Below are positions 29,547 to 39,456 of a stretch of DNA of 39,456 nucleotides, one piece after another. The stretch spans positions 1 through 39,456 of the forward strand of contig WGDB01000142.1 of NCBI GenBank assembly GCA_015493495.1, given 5' to 3'. Both the position numbers and the translations under genes were made by a program. Below the pieces are notes generated by a model that searched no databases, was not told the DNA's origin, and worked only from the letters and a program-made list of their open reading frames with translations. The stretch's first letter is position 1; every line of letters begins with the position of its first letter. Source of the DNA: Helicobacteraceae bacterium (GTDB lineage: Bacteria; Campylobacterota; Campylobacteria; Campylobacterales; Sulfurimonadaceae).

Positions 29547-29774
29547 ATGATTGCAACAGTTAGATTAGATAGCGAATTGGAAGAAGTGTTAAACTCTATT
29601 GCAAAAAAATTCCATAAAAAAAAGAGTGATGTCATACGAGAAGCGATCTCACATTATGCAAAAAGTTTAGAGAAAAGTCAAAAAACAAGAATACAAAAGG
29701 CGATGGCCAAAACGATGGAGAGTGATTTTAGTGAATATAAAGAGATAGAAGGTTCTCTAGATGACAGCTTCTAG
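29547..29774 (+). CDS. Ribbon-helix-helix antitoxin
   Basis: A 75-residue protein with an N-terminal RHH DNA-binding fold: strand ATVRLDSEL (3-11), then two helices (EEVLNSIAKKFHKKKSDVIREAISHYAKSL region, to about residue 42). The acidic C-terminal part (from about 50, with DFSEYKEIEGSLDD) would wrap and block the toxin. AGGAG lies seven bases before the ATG. It overlaps the toxin gene by 14 bases, the usual order for such pairs. Confidence 0.87.
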   Translation: MIATVRLDSELEEVLNSIAKKFHKKKSDVIREAISHYAKSLEKSQKTRIQKAMAKTMESDFSEYKEIEGSLDDSF

Positions 29775-30102
29775 AGGTGATATCTGGCTTATAAATTTCA
29801 ATCCTACTAAAAAGTCTAATGAAATAGGAAAGATAAGACCAGCTCTTGTCTTTCAAAATGACGAACTAAACAGTGGTGGGTATCCAACGACTATTGTATT
29901 GCCTTTGACTACGCATCTTATTGACGATGCAAAGCCTTTAAGATATCGTATTGTGCAGTCTGGAAAATTAGAGCAGGATTCAGATCTGTTAATAGCACAT
30001 ATCCGTTCTATAGATAACTCCAGATTTATTGAAAAACTAACTTCTTTAAACGAGAAACAGATGGTTGTCATCAAAAAACTTCTAGATGAAGTGTTGAATT
30101 AA
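29761..30102 (+). CDS. MazF/PemK-family mRNA interferase toxin
   Basis: A 113-residue toxin of the MazF/PemK fold, which cuts mRNA at short sequences when the antitoxin is lost. The RGDIWLINFNP start (5-15), the GKIRPALVFQ segment with conserved Arg26 and Pro27, and the TTIVLPLTT strand are family features. The S-type region (IAHIRSIDNSRF) follows. All expected residues appear intact, so the pair is likely active. The cut site cannot be predicted. Confidence 0.88.
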   Translation: MTASRGDIWLINFNPTKKSNEIGKIRPALVFQNDELNSGGYPTTIVLPLTTHLIDDAKPLRYRIVQSGKLEQDSDLLIAHIRSIDNSRFIEKLTSLNEKQMVVIKKLLDEVLN

Positions 30103-31837: not shown

Positions 31838-31900
31838 TCTTTGCATAAAAACTACTTATGATGATAGTCTGTGCTACAAGCAGACAAAAGGATAAAACAC

Positions 31901-33469
31901 ATGCGATTTAACAGACTGTTATGGTTTCCTTTCGCCTTGACATTAAGTGTACAAGTCAATGCCTTGACACTGCAAGAGAGCGTCTCAGAAGTTTTAGAGA
32001 CAAACCCTACCGTAGTAGAGAGACTCAAAAACTATAGAGCCTCTAAAGCAAAAGTAGGTGTGGCAGATGCAGGTTATATGCCGACGATTGACCTTGAGAC
32101 CTCTGTAGGCCGTGAAGAAGGAGGTGTTTTTTTTGAGCGTATAGATCGTACAGGTGACTGGGTATTAGAACACTCTCTTATACTGCGTCAAAACCTTTTT
32201 GATGGTTTTGGTACCGTTGAACAAGTCAACTATGAAAAGATGCAGACACTTGCTGCTGCGCACAGTTACTTGGAAGTTGCCAACGATACATCACTGAAGA
32301 TGATAAAAAGCTACCTTGATGTCTTACGCGAGTATGAGTTGTTGATCAATGCAAGAGATAATGTGCAAGAACATCAGAAGATCTATGACAAGGTCTTGAC
32401 TCTTTACAATGGCGGTCTGACAACACTTTCAGAAGTTGAGCGTATTAAAGCATCCCTTTCATCAGTAGAAGCGAACCTGATCTTACAAAAAAACAGTGTT
32501 CGAGATGCACAATTTAGCCTCAAACGAGTCTTAGGACGTCTGTTGACACTTGAAGAGTTGGAAGTACCAAATTATAAGCCTCCTATGCCTGATAGTTTGG
32601 ATCAAGCCAGTGCGTATGCTCTAAAATACAACCCATCACTACAGGTAAGCCGTTTTAACATTAAAAGTGCACAATCACTTCTTAAGCAAGATAGAAAAAA
32701 TTTCTATCCTACCTTAGATGCAGAGTTGAGTGCAAATTTTGATGATTATGCCAAAAATGAAAATGCCCGTCAAGATGATCAAGAGTATTACAGAGCGATG
32801 CTGGTCTTACGGTATAACCTCTATCGTGGTGGCAGTGACAGTGCCAAAAAACAGATCAATATCTCTAAGATCAACCAAGAAGTGGCCATACAACAAGACC
32901 TTCGTCGACAGACCTTAGAGTCACTGGCACTCGCATGGAACTCTCGAGACCTGTCTATACAGCAGATCCCGATCTTAGAAGATTACTACCTTCACTCCAA
33001 GCGTACACTTGGTCTCTATATTGATGAATATAACTTCGGTAAACGTTCACTTCTTGACCTGCTTGCTGCACAAAACGATGTGGCCCGTTCAAATACACAG
33101 ATCATTGATGCCAACTATAAGTTACTTTACTCAGAGTACCGAATTATGGATGCTATGGGCTTGACTATGGCAGCAGTTGTAGGCGATGTTAATAAGTATT
33201 ATCAGAATGTTGGACTTCGTGTTGACGAAGAAGCACAAGCGAAGATGAGTGATGAAGAGCGTGAAAAAGCAGAAAAAGCATCTCAAGATACATTACCAAT
33301 CAAAAACGATATGGACAATGATCATATTGTAGACAGTAAAGACCTTTGTGATAACTCCGAAGCCAACACCAGTGTCAGGGCTTTAGGATGTGTGCGTTTT
33401 GATGATGGCCTGGATGCTTTAGACACAGCAACAGCAAACGAACCAACTCAAATAGATAATATAAAGTAG
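31901..33469 (+). CDS. TolC-family outer membrane channel with a TSP3-like tail
   Basis: A 522-residue TolC/LapE-type protein forming the outer-membrane channel of a type I secretion system. The signal peptide is residues 1-21 (ends SVQVNA). Two outer-membrane-efflux repeats follow, with coiled-coil helices and the usual GGLTTLSEVERIKASL and FGKRSLLDLLAAQNDV segments. After the channel (from about 440) a polar tail carries one thrombospondin-type-3-like motif, NDMDNDHIVDSKDLC (about 468-482), then a second Cys in ALGC. Such a calcium-binding motif is unusual in TolC. ATG 31901 is preferred over an earlier GTG because AAAGGAT precedes it and it begins the signal peptide. Confidence 0.9.
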   Translation: MRFNRLLWFPFALTLSVQVNALTLQESVSEVLETNPTVVERLKNYRASKAKVGVADAGYMPTIDLETSVGREEGGVFFERIDRTGDWVLEHSLILRQNLFDGFGTVEQVNYEKMQTLAAAHSYLEVANDTSLKMIKSYLDVLREYELLINARDNVQEHQKIYDKVLTLYNGGLTTLSEVERIKASLSSVEANLILQKNSVRDAQFSLKRVLGRLLTLEELEVPNYKPPMPDSLDQASAYALKYNPSLQVSRFNIKSAQSLLKQDRKNFYPTLDAELSANFDDYAKNENARQDDQEYYRAMLVLRYNLYRGGSDSAKKQINISKINQEVAIQQDLRRQTLESLALAWNSRDLSIQQIPILEDYYLHSKRTLGLYIDEYNFGKRSLLDLLAAQNDVARSNTQIIDANYKLLYSEYRIMDAMGLTMAAVVGDVNKYYQNVGLRVDEEAQAKMSDEEREKAEKASQDTLPIKNDMDNDHIVDSKDLCDNSEANTSVRALGCVRFDDGLDALDTATANEPTQIDNIK

Positions 33470-33480
33470 AGGATAAGTAG

Positions 33481-34569
33481 ATGATGAAAATAGCATTAAC
33501 AACCCTTATAGCCACATTGACGCTGAGTGGTGCTTCTATGTATGATGATAACTACTCTTTGGAAAAACAGCCTCAAGTCAAAGGGGCTAAAAAAGCACAA
33601 TATGCAGAGCATAAAGAACTGGATGGTAGTTTTTTCCTAGGTGATTTTTTTGACAAGATCATCCGCTATGAACCTGTTTTCTTTGATGGCGAAAGTATCA
33701 GCAGCGGGCAAGAGAGTATTGATAAACTTTTAAAAGATCTCGAGGCTCAGGACCTAAACCGTAGTCGTATCACTGTTATTGGCTATACCAATGAGTCGGA
33801 TGATCCTGATGCTGACAAGGCAGTGAAAACTAACGCTTTTATAGACTTTTTTCAAAACATAGCAACTCATAAAGGGGGAGATAAGGTTTCAGACATAAAT
33901 CTCTCTAAAAAGCGTTCAGAAGTTGTTTTTAACAAACTTGTTGATGAAAATGTCTCCGAGTCGATCATCTACAAAGAGATGCGCGGTGGTGATGATCCAC
34001 TTTATACCGAAGGTACCTCTAAAGGTATTGACTTGAACAACCGTGTCGAACTAGCACTTTACGTCATTGGCGATGAGGATAAAGATGGTGTCTTAGATCC
34101 TTATGACAGATGTCCAAAGACCTTCCCAGGTCTGGAAGTAGACAAATTCGGATGTGCGGGCAGTATCAATCTTGAGGTTAACTTTAAACTTGACTCCTCT
34201 GATGTCTCAGGTGATGACAACAGTAGTGTAGAAGCCTTTGCTAACTTCTTAATAGACAATCCACCATATGATGCTGTGATCGTTGGACACACTGACAAGC
34301 AGGGTCGTGCAGAATATAATGTGAAACTTTCTGAACGTCGTGCGAAGACTGTACTCGACATGTTAGTGAAAATGGGTGTTGATCGTAGTCGTCTGAAGTT
34401 TGAGGGTAAAGGTTTCTCTGAGCCGATCATTGACGAAGATACTCCTGAGGCCTACGCTAAAAACCGTCGTATTGAGGCGCACTACTTTATACGGGATTCT
34501 GAAAAGAAGAAGATGCAGAAAGAAGTGACAGTACCGAAACTTCGACAAGAACCTCAAATTAAGAAGTAG
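33481..34569 (+). CDS. Tandem OmpA-domain protein of the secretion operon
   Basis: A 362-residue exported protein (signal peptide about 1-19). Two OmpA-like domains flank a thrombospondin-3-type motif. Domain 1 is about 65-196: FFDGESISSGQESI, GYTN (101-104), LSKKR (141-145), NNRVELAL. The TSP3 motif DEDKDGVLDPYDRCP is at 198-212, with a second Cys at 225. Domain 2 is about 229-337: GHTD (269-272), LSERRA (283-288), KNRRIEA. Domain 2 has the Asp and Arg used to bind diaminopimelate of peptidoglycan. Domain 1 has Asn in place of that Asp and may not bind. It sits between tolC and the ABC gene, suggesting that it anchors the secretion channel to the cell wall. Confidence 0.87.
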   Translation: MMKIALTTLIATLTLSGASMYDDNYSLEKQPQVKGAKKAQYAEHKELDGSFFLGDFFDKIIRYEPVFFDGESISSGQESIDKLLKDLEAQDLNRSRITVIGYTNESDDPDADKAVKTNAFIDFFQNIATHKGGDKVSDINLSKKRSEVVFNKLVDENVSESIIYKEMRGGDDPLYTEGTSKGIDLNNRVELALYVIGDEDKDGVLDPYDRCPKTFPGLEVDKFGCAGSINLEVNFKLDSSDVSGDDNSSVEAFANFLIDNPPYDAVIVGHTDKQGRAEYNVKLSERRAKTVLDMLVKMGVDRSRLKFEGKGFSEPIIDEDTPEAYAKNRRIEAHYFIRDSEKKKMQKEVTVPKLRQEPQIKK

Positions 34570-34574
34570 CGATC

Positions 34575-36728
34575 ATGGCATCAAAACAACTACATTCTCA
34601 AGCGTTGTTAGATGCACTCTCTCTCTTCACTAAACGCTACCATAGACCTGTTTCTAAAGAAGCTTTAATAGCTGGTTTGCCTACTGCAACGGCTTCATCG
34701 ATCCCTGACCTTTTAGACCACTCACAAGCAAGTACACTTTTTACACGCATCTCTGAGCGTGCGGGGTTTAAGTCAACATTGGTTGAACGTCCACTTGACA
34801 AGATATCTGCACTGCATCTACCTGCTATTTTAATCCTTTCCGATGCCAACACGGCTATTTTAGAAGCATTTAACGAAGATCGCAGCAAAGTGAAACTGAT
34901 CTATGTTGAAGGTGAAGTCGAAGAGTGGGTCGATGTAGAAAAGGTGCAAGAGAGTTATTTGAACTTTATGTTGATGTTAAAGCGGGTTGTTGATGTCCAA
35001 GATGAGACACTCTCTGTACGTCATGGCCATGATGGACACTGGTTTTTTGATACCTTGAAACTCTCGTTGCCAATCTATAAAGATGTTTTGATCGCCTCTT
35101 TGTTGATCAACCTCTTTGTCTTGGCCACCCCGCTCTTTACGATGAATGTCTATGACCGGGTCATACCAAGTAATGCAACTGAGACACTTTTGGTCTTTTC
35201 TGTAGGTATTATGTTTGCCTATCTGCTTGACAGTTTTTTAAAGTTTACCCGTACTCGTTTACTGGAGATCGCAGCTAAAAAGAGTGACATTGTTATGAGC
35301 TCTATTGTCTTTGAAAAGATCTTGGATCTTAAGATGGCCATGCACCCCTCATCAGTTGGCTCTTTTGCCAATAATATAAAAGATTTTGAGTCTATTCGTG
35401 GTTTTATGACCAATGCCACTATGGCGGCTGTCATAGACCTTCCTTTTGCAGTACTTTTTTTACTGGTCATCTACTATATCGGTGGGGTGATAGTCTTTAT
35501 ACCAATGACGATCATGGCATTGATACTTATTTATGCGTTTATCATCAAAAAGCCACTTCAAGAGAGTATTGAGAGTACACATGAGGCTGCCGCTCGTAAA
35601 CATGGTGTCTTGATAGAGACATTGCAAAATATTGAGACTATTAAAACACAGGGAATGGTAGGAAAACAGCAGTTTTTATATGAAGAGTCAGTAGGTGAGA
35701 TCGCACAAAAGAGCTTCTACTCACGTATGCTCTCTGCGAGCGTTCCTACCATCACCGCATTACTCACACAGGTCAACACAGTGGCTATTGTTATTACGGG
35801 AGTCTTTATGATAGGTGACCTTGAATTGACGATGGGTGGACTTATAGGAATTGTGATCTTGTCCTCCAGGACTGTTTCCCCTATGGGACAGGTGGCAGGG
35901 CTTATTACCAATTATGCCGATGCAAGATCTGCATTTGACACGATCAACACAATTATCTCTCAAGAGCAAGAACGTCCCAATGGCCATAACTTTTTAGAAC
36001 GTGACCACTTTAGAGGAAAAATAGAGTTTAAAAAGGTCTCTTTTAGTTACCCTAATTCTGAAGTTCAAGCACTTAAAGAGGTCTCTTTTGTGATAGAGGC
36101 TGGTGAACATGTGGGTGTGATCGGACGGATTGGTTCCGGAAAAAGTACCATAGAAAAGCTTATTTTGAAACTTTACGAACCGGACGAGGGAAGTATCTTG
36201 ATCGATGATGTTGATATCGCTCAGATAGATCCAGCTATCTTACGTGCCAATATAGGTTATGTAGCACAAGATGTGGCCTTGTTTAGAGGCACACTTAAAG
36301 AGAACATCTTGAACCGTAACAGTGGTGTGAGCGATGAGGATTTTTTAGTGGCAACGAAACTGAGTGGGGTTGATGAGTTTGCACGGATGCACCCACATGG
36401 CTATGGGATGATGATAGGTGAACGGGCGCAAGGACTCTCCGGCGGCCAGCGTCAAAGCATTGGGATCGCGAGAGCATTGATCGCTGATGCGCCTTTAATG
36501 CTTTTGGATGAACCGACCAATGCTCTTGACCAGCTCAGTGAATCCCGTCTTATTAACTATTTAAGTCAGAGTCTAAGTAACGCAAAAACGGTACTTTTGG
36601 TGACTCAAAAATTAGGATTGCTCTCTATGACACCGCGTGTTATTGTGATGCATGAAGGTCAGGTCTATCTTGATGGAAAACGTGAAGATGTCTTGAAAAA
36701 ACTTCAAGGAGTGGAGAGTCATGGCTAA
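34575..36728 (+). CDS. lapB: Type I secretion ABC transporter, LapB-like
   Basis: A 717-residue inner-membrane ATPase that drives export of the adhesin. Residues 1-130 are a C39-like domain without catalytic cysteine, as in LapB/HlyB, used for substrate docking. The membrane domain is about 165-440. The nucleotide-binding domain has Walker A GRIGSGKS (517-524), signature LSGGQRQ (621-627) and Walker B LMLLDEP (Asp645, Glu646). The switch histidine of the H-loop is replaced by Gln678 (VTQK where relatives have VTH), an odd change because this His is essential in HlyB. It starts five bases after the OmpA gene and overlaps the next gene by eight bases. Confidence 0.92.
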   Translation: MASKQLHSQALLDALSLFTKRYHRPVSKEALIAGLPTATASSIPDLLDHSQASTLFTRISERAGFKSTLVERPLDKISALHLPAILILSDANTAILEAFNEDRSKVKLIYVEGEVEEWVDVEKVQESYLNFMLMLKRVVDVQDETLSVRHGHDGHWFFDTLKLSLPIYKDVLIASLLINLFVLATPLFTMNVYDRVIPSNATETLLVFSVGIMFAYLLDSFLKFTRTRLLEIAAKKSDIVMSSIVFEKILDLKMAMHPSSVGSFANNIKDFESIRGFMTNATMAAVIDLPFAVLFLLVIYYIGGVIVFIPMTIMALILIYAFIIKKPLQESIESTHEAAARKHGVLIETLQNIETIKTQGMVGKQQFLYEESVGEIAQKSFYSRMLSASVPTITALLTQVNTVAIVITGVFMIGDLELTMGGLIGIVILSSRTVSPMGQVAGLITNYADARSAFDTINTIISQEQERPNGHNFLERDHFRGKIEFKKVSFSYPNSEVQALKEVSFVIEAGEHVGVIGRIGSGKSTIEKLILKLYEPDEGSILIDDVDIAQIDPAILRANIGYVAQDVALFRGTLKENILNRNSGVSDEDFLVATKLSGVDEFARMHPHGYGMMIGERAQGLSGGQRQSIGIARALIADAPLMLLDEPTNALDQLSESRLINYLSQSLSNAKTVLLVTQKLGLLSMTPRVIVMHEGQVYLDGKREDVLKKLQGVESHG

Positions 36729-38043
36729 ATTTACCAAAGAAGATTTTGAATACATGAACACACTCTCCTCTGTAGTCAAGGAGAAAGAGTCTCATCGTAT
36801 CCGGGTGGTACTTTATCTTTGGGCCTTTGCTTTGTTCTCTTTTATAGTTTGGGCCTATTTTGCTGAGATCGATGAGATTGCCAGAGGTAAAGGTGAGGTC
36901 GTTCCAAGTGGCAACAACCAGATGGTGCAAAACCTTGAGGGTGGGATCGTTAAAAAGATCTTGGTCAAGCCGGGGGACTTTGTAGAGAAGGGTCAACCTC
37001 TTATGAAGATAGATAATTCCAAATCTGAAGCGCAAAAAGATTCTGGTGCGCTAAAGAGCTTGGAGTTGGAAGCAAAGATCATCAGACTCAAAGCGGAGTC
37101 AGAAGGCCTGCCTTTTGAAGTCAATGCTACGACAGTGGCGCGTATGCCACTGCTTATAGCCAATGAACGAAGTCTCTACTTGGGGCGTAAAAATGCTTAC
37201 CGTTCAAGTGTCAGTGTTCTTGATGAACAGCTTAGCCAAAAGCGTACCGAGTTGAAAGAGACTTACTCCCACATCGAACACCTCAAGCGCTCGTTGGAAT
37301 ATGTTACGACTGAAGTGGCTATGACAGAACCTATGGTAGCCAAGGGTGTCAAGTCCAAGGTAGAGTTTTTACAACTGCAACGTGAACAAAATGAGATCTC
37401 AGAGCGCTATCAGGCTGCTAGAGTCTCCGTAGCACGTATACAGTCTGCCATTGCTGAGGTGACAAGTAAAATAGAGCAGACCCGTAGTGAGTTTAAAAAC
37501 AAAGCCAAACAAGAGCTGAACGAAGCAGTGGCAGAGAAGATGCGTCTTAAAGAGAGTATGAAAGCTTATCGTGACCAGGTAGACAGAACCTTGTTACGTT
37601 CACCTATTAAAGGTGTTATTCAAAAGCTCTACATTTTTACAGAAGGCGGGGTCGTGAAACCGGGTGAAGACCTTATAGAGATCGTACCTACAGATGAAGC
37701 ACTCTGGATAGAGGTAAAAGTAAAACCTTCGGACATCGCTTTTATCTATCCAGGGCAAGAGGCTATTGTGAAGTTCTCTGCTTATGATTTCGCTATTTAT
37801 GGAGGATTAGAGGCCAATGTCTTTCATATTTCAGCAGACACTACCACTGATCGTAAAGATAATGTCTATTATACGGTGCACCTCAAAACTAAAAAGAATT
37901 ATCTTGGAAATGCCTCAAAACCATTGAAGATCATACCTGGTATGACGGTTAATGTTGACATTATTACAGGTAAAAAATCTGTATTAGACTATATTTTGAA
38001 ACCTATACTGCGTTCAAAACAGTATACCTTTACGGAGCGTTAA
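36721..38043 (+). CDS. lapC: HlyD-family membrane fusion protein, LapC-like
   Basis: A 440-residue periplasmic adaptor joining the ABC transporter to TolC. One membrane helix (about 27-46) is followed by the first lipoyl half (NLEGGIVKKILVKPGDFVEKGQPL), a long coiled coil (about 110-280), the second lipoyl half (LLRSPIKGVIQKL), and a beta-barrel domain (VKPSDIAFIYPGQEAIVKFSAYDF), ending with GMTVNVDIITGKKSVLDYILKPI, the HlyD signature region. The ATG is in the end of the ABC gene, with AAGGAG before it. Length is normal. Confidence 0.93.
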   Translation: MAKFTKEDFEYMNTLSSVVKEKESHRIRVVLYLWAFALFSFIVWAYFAEIDEIARGKGEVVPSGNNQMVQNLEGGIVKKILVKPGDFVEKGQPLMKIDNSKSEAQKDSGALKSLELEAKIIRLKAESEGLPFEVNATTVARMPLLIANERSLYLGRKNAYRSSVSVLDEQLSQKRTELKETYSHIEHLKRSLEYVTTEVAMTEPMVAKGVKSKVEFLQLQREQNEISERYQAARVSVARIQSAIAEVTSKIEQTRSEFKNKAKQELNEAVAEKMRLKESMKAYRDQVDRTLLRSPIKGVIQKLYIFTEGGVVKPGEDLIEIVPTDEALWIEVKVKPSDIAFIYPGQEAIVKFSAYDFAIYGGLEANVFHISADTTTDRKDNVYYTVHLKTKKNYLGNASKPLKIIPGMTVNVDIITGKKSVLDYILKPILRSKQYTFTER

Positions 38044-38140: not shown

Positions 38141-39456
38141 ATGCATAATATCATTGCTTATTTAAATAGAAAAGATGGTCAGTTTTTTGCAAAAGACGAA
38201 TTGGGTAATTTAAGAGAGATCGCTTTTGGTGATCCTATTTTTGAAGGAGAAGTGGTTGTTCAGGTTGTTGCTGATGCTGCTAAGACTGCTGAGACTGAAG
38301 GTGAAATTATTTTAGAGATCACACCTGAAGAGAGCGCTTTTCAGAAAATGCCACTTAATGAAGAAGCTGCAAGACGTCTTGATACAGCGACCTCTGTGGA
38401 AGTCCTTTTACCACTTAGCAATCCAGAAGTCAACGTTGTTGCTACACTGCGTCAAGGCCATAGTTTTGAAGAACGGTATGTTAAGCCTATCTCAGAGATG
38501 GTTGAAGAACAAAGTCTTTTGGATAGTACACCTGTTGCCAATCCTGATACAGCAAGAACAGACGAAGACTTTACAGGCTTGCTCAATGGTAATGTTTTTA
38601 ACAACGGCCAAAGCGGTGATGTTGCAGACAGCCTGGGGCGTGATGATGGCGTTTCACAGCCCATTATTGGTGTTCAAGTAGGTAGTACTGAGGATGAAGT
38701 ACACGGTGGTCTTGGAAATACCTTGACTGGTACTTATGGAACCCTTGTATTAGAGGCTGATGGCTCGTATGAGTATGATCTGAATGAAAACTCTGTCGTG
38801 ACACAAGCTTTAGTAGATGGTCAGGTTGGTAAAGATGTGTTTTCTTATACCATTACGGATTCTGACGGTGATACTGCAACAACAACGTTGACTATAAATG
38901 TTATTGGTGCAGATGATGCCAGTTACATTGTTATACCACCACAAACAGTTTACGAAGCAGGTCTGCCTGAGGGTACTTTGGCTGATGGCAGTGATCATGT
39001 TGTGGACAAAGAGATACAAATACAGGCAAAAGATATACTTGACACGGTGACTATTGGCGGAACAACTTTGACATTAGCACAACTTCAAGACCTTGCAAAT
39101 AACAATGCAAGTATAGATACTGGTGAAGGTACATTGACCTTGACAGATTATAACTTCAATCTAACGGGATTTGTGACGACTCTGACCTATACCTATGCAC
39201 TAAATGATAATCTAGACCATCCTGCAGCAGCGGGTAATAATACCTTAGAAGATGATATCGCAGTCAGTGTAGTAGATGTTAATGGTTCTCTGGCTAATGG
39301 TACTTTAGCGATCACAATCGTTGATGATGTACCTGTAACAGTAGTCGATACCAATGAGATCACTGAAGATGGTATGCCAAATACTGTTAGCGGAAATGTC
39401 TACAGTACAACAGGTGCAAGCAGTGGTGACAATGCAGACAACATCGGTGCTGACAC
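38141..39456 (+). CDS. Large VCBS-repeat adhesin, LapA/BapA-like, 5' part
   Basis: The frame is open from ATG 38141 (AAAAGGA before it) to the window edge: 438 codons and no stop. Residues 1 to about 125 look like the LapA-type retention module (GQFFAKDELGNLREIAFGDP, then IFEGEVV), which plugs the TolC channel and keeps the protein on the surface. A VCBS-type repeat follows at about 130-255 (GTYGTLVLEADGSYEYDL, VFSYTITDSDGDTATTTLTI). From about 256 comes a second repeat type with VYEAGLPEGT and ITEDGMP, as in T1SS-143-type adhesins. The secretion signal would be at the unseen C-terminus. It is the obvious cargo of the transporter just upstream. No LapD or LapG gene is in view. Confidence 0.88.
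   Translation, partial: MHNIIAYLNRKDGQFFAKDELGNLREIAFGDPIFEGEVVVQVVADAAKTAETEGEIILEITPEESAFQKMPLNEEAARRLDTATSVEVLLPLSNPEVNVVATLRQGHSFEERYVKPISEMVEEQSLLDSTPVANPDTARTDEDFTGLLNGNVFNNGQSGDVADSLGRDDGVSQPIIGVQVGSTEDEVHGGLGNTLTGTYGTLVLEADGSYEYDLNENSVVTQALVDGQVGKDVFSYTITDSDGDTATTTLTINVIGADDASYIVIPPQTVYEAGLPEGTLADGSDHVVDKEIQIQAKDILDTVTIGGTTLTLAQLQDLANNNASIDTGEGTLTLTDYNFNLTGFVTTLTYTYALNDNLDHPAAAGNNTLEDDIAVSVVDVNGSLANGTLAITIVDDVPVTVVDTNEITEDGMPNTVSGNVYSTTGASSGDNADNIGAD

Follow-up and report, generated by a model that had tools for sequence, protein, structure and literature searches.

A 362-residue periplasmic protein with two OmpA-type domains in tandem is encoded inside a Lap/Bpf-type type I adhesin secretion operon of a Helicobacteraceae bacterium. 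We lean towards the reading that this protein acts as a clamp, with its second domain (D2) holding peptidoglycan and its first domain (D1) docking on the TolC-type channel, so that channel and adhesin would be tied to the cell wall. It has been known since at least 2015 that an OmpA-like gene of adhesin secretion operons influences biofilms, though not in what capacity. A concrete job for it, that of tying an adhesin-bearing TolC to peptidoglycan, is suggested by the fused, split and SPOR-substituted forms described below. More tentatively, these forms may represent a modular anchoring device not described as such, in which an OmpA-derived D1 recognises the TSP3 tail of TolC, is paired with a wall-binding domain, and is exchangeable with TolC-OmpA and TolC-SPOR fusions. 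If that proposal is true, giant adhesins pull on peptidoglycan and not on the outer membrane alone.

Operon and domain architecture

The window, i.e. the whole stretch of 39,456 nucleotides that was analysed, corresponds to contig WGDB01000142.1 (C142) of a 2.57 Mb assembly that is 99.9% complete. Its gene order is tolC, tandem ompA, lssB, hlyD and a giant adhesin, all on the forward strand. The tandem ompA gene (33481-34569) starts 11 nt past the stop codon of tolC (31871-33469; TIGR01844, 242.5 bits). The LssB/LapB-type ABC transporter gene (34575-36728; TIGR03375, 811.5 bits) follows its stop codon after 5 nt and overlaps by 8 nt with the gene for the HlyD-family adaptor (36721-38043; TIGR01843, 412.9 bits). 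The adhesin gene (38141-39456) is cut by the contig end and opens with a divergent retention-like N-terminus, followed by VCBS and T1SS-143 repeats. An earlier note, made from the sequence alone, had placed the tandem ompA gene inside a secretion operon, and the shared strand and tight packing with tolC, lssB and hlyD bear this out. With an LssB/LapB-type ABC transporter, HlyD, TolC and a large repeat adhesin, the operon belongs to the Lap/Bpf-type adhesin systems. The first scan of the collection for close relatives returned one partial copy in a genome of the same genus (97% identical) and one weak match, and no homologues of the tandem protein were found among the viral contigs scanned. The window's own genome also carries another type I secretion operon, a diverged one (locus L038; contig C149, 20000-31727), with a TolC-OmpA (D2) fusion and without a separate ompA gene. 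A PemK/MazF-type toxin gene lies upstream of the window's operon (29761-30102; Pfam E=3.9e-25).

The Pfam OmpA model (PF00691) matches the tandem protein in two stretches, with 98.8 bits against a cut-off of 27.2 (E=2.3e-28). Profiles built from relatives delimit D1 at residues 51-196 (33631-34068; 124 bits) and D2 at residues 228-335 (34162-34485; 136 bits). The TSP3-type linker that joins them (34072-34155) contains the calcium-type motif DEDKDGVLDPYDRC, found by the pattern D.D.DG..D..D.C at residue 198; the Pfam TSP_3 model scores on relatives but not on the window protein. The arrangement that had been read from the letters, two OmpA-like domains around a TSP3 motif, thus stands. A predicted signal peptide (33481-33537) shows no lipobox pattern on inspection, so that the mature protein is predicted to be soluble and not lipid-anchored; it also falls short of the Pal lipoprotein family TIGR02802 (86.6 bits, cut-off 125.35). 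A single-sequence AlphaFold run on the mature protein gave a pLDDT of 32.6 and no usable model.

In OmpA of A. baumannii, one Asp and one Arg hold diaminopimelate (PMC6572160). The window D2, a canonical OmpA/Pal-type domain whose PDB matches include Pal and OprF, has both residues of this pair, the Asp of GHTD (34285-34296) and the Arg of LSERRA (34327-34344), as the earlier note had stated; family knowledge and these conserved residues suggest that D2 would bind the wall. In D1, the position of GHTD is occupied by GYTN (33781-33792), which the note had also recognised, with Asn replacing Asp. It had overlooked the arginine of LSKKR (33901-33915). Only the Asp of the pair is therefore lost from D1, which, retaining the other half, may still bind peptidoglycan weakly.

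The profile of the D1 family (30 members) matches PDB chains of YiaD, MotY, MotB, OprF and Pal (best E=1.8e-13) and aligns with the D2 profile at an hhalign probability of 99.4%. Judged by these profile comparisons D1 has an OmpA fold, on which the interpretation given in the earlier note hinged. In a tree of 57 domains, a branch with support 98 has every D1 on the same side, and on this ground we reject the idea that D1 arose from D2-like domains that decayed independently several times. The start of D1 carries a signature Ile-x-Arg-Tyr/Phe (I60 and R62 in the window protein; 33658-33669), whose Ile and Arg are near-invariant across 30 D1 sequences. D1 is a distinct altered OmpA domain family, which may have switched from wall binding to protein binding. 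We found no D1 outside Campylobacterota in the Pseudomonadota samples and the Marinomonas operon examined.

Among the domains surveyed, Arg is present in all 42 D2s and is accompanied by Asp in 29 of them; in the fused D2s of family f7, Ser replaces Asp. The 34 D1s include eight with Asp, 17 with Arg and seven with both, which means that in some systems D1 may bind peptidoglycan. When only the 12 separate D1-D2 proteins are counted, Asp occurs in one D1 versus 11 D2s and Arg in four D1s versus 12 D2s. The division into two classes holds for the window protein by its motifs and is not absolute across the family. A reciprocal swap of motifs was observed at locus L077, where D1 has GHTD without Arg and D2 has GHAS with Arg.

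Fused, split and SPOR-substituted forms

The lssB-type loci were drawn from 397 Campylobacterota genomes, and 84 of them (the window and 83 others) were examined. D1 and D2 both occur beside lssB in 28 loci, D1 only in six, D2 only in five, and neither in 45, proportions that are not unbiased frequencies since near-identical loci were thinned by hand. With neither domain present in 45 of 84 loci, the proposed clamp is not essential to this type of secretion. The domains occur in several arrangements. tolC followed by a D1-D2 gene is found in the window, L040, L041, L042, L057, L067 and L077. TolC-D2 followed by D1-D2 is found in L039, L049, L054, L056 and L061, and a single TolC-D1-D2 chain in L066, L071, L073, L074, L076, L078, L079, L084 and L087; among the chains scanned with Pfam, which include L076 and L087, the presence of OEP and OmpA in one chain was confirmed. 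A D2 gene precedes TolC-D1 in L045, L048, L052, L055, L072 and L068 (with a broken frame in L068), and TolC-D1 occurs alone in L050, L053, L060, L062, L064 and L065. One genome (G337) carries both a split copy (L077) and a fused copy (L076).

The tolC-ompA pairing is kept in relatives, as conservation of the gene order noted earlier would have it. On the lssB tree the window groups with L040, L041 and L042, all of them split, with support 99. The order in L041 and L042 is lssB-hlyD-tolC-ompA, from which it follows that the ompA gene travels with tolC and not with lssB. All fusions found join D1 or D2 domains to TolC, and none joins them to HlyD or LssB. A test of D1/D2 co-occurrence beyond shared ancestry yielded two supported pairs, too few independent pairs for significance. 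Divergent D2 neighbours in L069, L075 and L080, which lie on the opposite strand, were left out of the system. Also left out were the family-level matches to the whole protein, mostly ordinary OmpA-family proteins matching only TSP3-D2, since the loci fetched for them mostly had no adjoining secretion gene.

The C-terminal end of the window TolC is a TSP3-like segment, NDMDNDHIVDSKDLCDNS...GC (33308-33391), homologous by sequence comparison to the linker that bears the OmpA or SPOR domains in fused relatives. Such a tail was found on 37 TolCs, leading into OmpA in 26, into SPOR in two (L088, L098), into neither in one, and being terminal in the remaining eight. These eight adjoin a D1-D2 gene, one of them (L006) being cut by the contig end; every TolC with an adjoining D1-D2 gene and without a fused domain ends in the TSP3 linker of the fused forms. 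None of the seven split loci surveyed lacks the tail, and on the lssB tree the split state counts as four changes, which may have been fusions or fissions. Judging from these sequences, retention of the tail exceeds what would be expected of a useless scar.

SPOR is a wall-binding domain of a family unrelated to OmpA. It occupies the same position on TolC in L088, L098 and L117, with two SPOR stretches in L117, and that two unrelated wall-binding domains occur at one position of TolC argues more strongly than anything else for anchoring. In L116 a TolC-SPOR fusion was noted whose SPOR lies just below the Pfam cut-off. The TolC-SPOR fusions (L088, L098, L116, L117) lie in type I secretion operons of Campylobacterota. 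In the titles and abstracts of the literature collection searched, fusions of TolC with OmpA or SPOR domains in type I secretion were not described.

Some loci showed further peculiarities. The TolC/OmpA frames of L068, L086 and L114 look broken or oddly split, with TolC in two pieces in L114 and D1 in a separate frame with the end of TolC in L068. TolCs of family f3 (L097, L101, L104, L106, L107, L111) carry about 160-190 extra residues N-terminal to the channel domain, a stretch that had no Pfam match in the four that were scanned (L097, L101, L106, L107).

Probable anchoring role and alternative readings

In the proposed clamp, D2 would grip peptidoglycan in the manner of Pal and OmpA. D1, without the peptidoglycan-binding Asp, would dock on TolC from the periplasm, with the conserved TSP3 tail as the probable site, and the adhesin would probably be held in the TolC channel by an N-terminal plug. 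With TolC tethered to the cell wall, pulling forces would not extract the channel. Relatives would form the same link through fusion of D1-D2, D2 or SPOR with TolC; gammaproteobacteria would use a separate protein, often with a lipid anchor. Domain identity, the operon, the fusions, the homology of the tail and the recurrence of wall-binding domains were computed directly, and for anchoring the support is fairly good. That TolC is the partner of D1 is suggested by the fusions, by retention of the tail and by the lack of a lipid anchor; wall binding by the window D2, the load-bearing role and retention of the window adhesin are inferred as well. The earlier note had proposed that one half of the protein holds peptidoglycan and the other binds another partner, perhaps the tail of TolC. 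The residues fit the first part of this proposal, except that D1 retains half of the binding pair. The second gains indirect support, in that many relatives have D1 fused to the tail, which is also kept where the two are split. The earlier interpretation is partly supported overall, and its functional guess is largely plausible.

The main doubt about the clamp concerns D1. It persists in fused forms, where docking is unneeded, so that docking is not its sole role there, and the six loci with D1 and no nearby D2 speak against the clamp. D1 also keeps part of the wall-binding site, which makes a second grip on the wall conceivable. Both domains would then bind peptidoglycan, D1 with an altered preference for stem peptides, and TolC would be met by another surface or never. 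The LSxxR arginine of the window D1, the seven of 34 D1s that retain Asp and Arg, and the tandem SPOR domains of L117 are in keeping with this possibility, which we nevertheless regard as doubtful given the scarcity of both residues in the D1s of the 12 separate proteins and the signature that D1s have of their own.

We consider it unlikely that D1 docks instead on the HlyD adaptor, LssB or the N-terminal plug of the adhesin, the protein serving to steady the assembly or to sense the retained adhesin. These candidate partners are encoded in the same operon, and adhesins of this group start with divergent retention-like modules; however, every fusion found is to TolC, and ompA keeps its place beside tolC in L041 and L042, where lssB and hlyD have moved. 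Very improbable, in our judgement, is a general OmpA-like envelope tether co-transcribed by chance, with D1 as a decaying copy and the TolC tail as a scar of gene fission. In its favour, these genomes contain many OmpA-family proteins, and the known ligand site has degenerated in D1; against it, the D1s make up a single supported family in which some residues hardly vary, the tail survives in all seven split lssB loci surveyed across the four changes scored on the tree, and fusion to TolC is repeated.

Adhesin cargo and related systems

The N-terminus of the window adhesin, MHNIIAYLNRKDGQFFAKDELGNLREIAFGDPIFEGE, scores 14.8 bits with the LapA retention module NF033682 (cut-off 50). It resembles the adhesin starts of relatives, which score 23-28 bits against the same cut-off, and this likeness makes a retained adhesin that plugs the window's TolC plausible. 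No LapG protease (PF06035) was found in the window's genome assembly, and release, if any, may work differently here; LapG is present in 52 of 200 genomes of the phylum.

Most lssB loci in the Pseudomonadota samples have no adjoining OmpA gene. Two gammaproteobacterial genomes (G920, G952) have the order lssB-hlyD-tolC-ompA with one canonical OmpA domain, a single D2, and no D1; the single-D2 proteins of gammaproteobacterial loci L141, L153 and L158 are lipoproteins by sequence. LapA-type operons of Pseudomonas have no such protein between channel and ABC genes (PMC4523816), and to that extent the remark made in the earlier note was right. The novelty it implied was overstated, since OmpA genes are known in Shewanella Lap/Bpf operons. 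In Shewanella oneidensis, SO4321 is an OmpA-like gene of the bpfA cluster, whose deletion affects biofilm formation and whose role was not known according to the authors (PMC4523816). Like the window gene, SO4321 (bpfA/agg operon) lies beside genes for type I secretion of a Lap/Bpf-type adhesin, but the gene order is different, and the gammaproteobacterial relatives found here, SO4321 itself not being among them, have one canonical domain without D1. An OmpA gene in Lap/Bpf operons being already known, the window gene with its extra altered D1 is a variant, and its novelty is lowered accordingly.

The plasmid-borne lap operon of Marinomonas algicola has the order tolC, lptE-like, ompA, lapG-like, EAL-domain, lssB and hlyD. 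As in the window, the gene for an OmpA/TSP3 protein (WP_191603727.1) lies between tolC and the ABC/HlyD genes, which runs counter to the implied novelty of an ompA gene between channel and ABC genes. In contrast to the window protein, WP_191603727.1 has a single OmpA domain with several TSP3 repeats, and lapG- and lapD-like genes also belong to its operon. The gene annotated lptE between tolC and ompA (L163, 6765-7619) was rejected as a D1 candidate, with no D1 match; its product is an LptE-like lipoprotein (Pfam LptE, 29.5 bits).

Among better-known proteins, D2 shares sequence and the Asp/Arg binding pair with Pal and the C-terminal domain of OmpA, but the window protein has no lipid anchor and no outer-membrane barrel, and it carries the extra altered domain. 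SiiA of Salmonella SPI-4 is an accessory protein of type I secretion whose periplasmic domain binds peptidoglycan (PMC12607715), a combination that is predicted for the window protein too. SiiA differs in sitting in the inner membrane, where it is the MotB-like part of a proton channel formed with SiiB, whereas the window protein carries a signal peptide and its gene adjoins none for a SiiB-like partner. In Arcobacter cloacae, the plasmid-encoded TolC family outer membrane protein WP_172658350.1 is a single TolC-TSP3-D1-D2 chain, and its gene is followed by the same ABC and HlyD genes; unlike the window proteins it is a covalent fusion, and its D2 has GHAS instead of GHTD.
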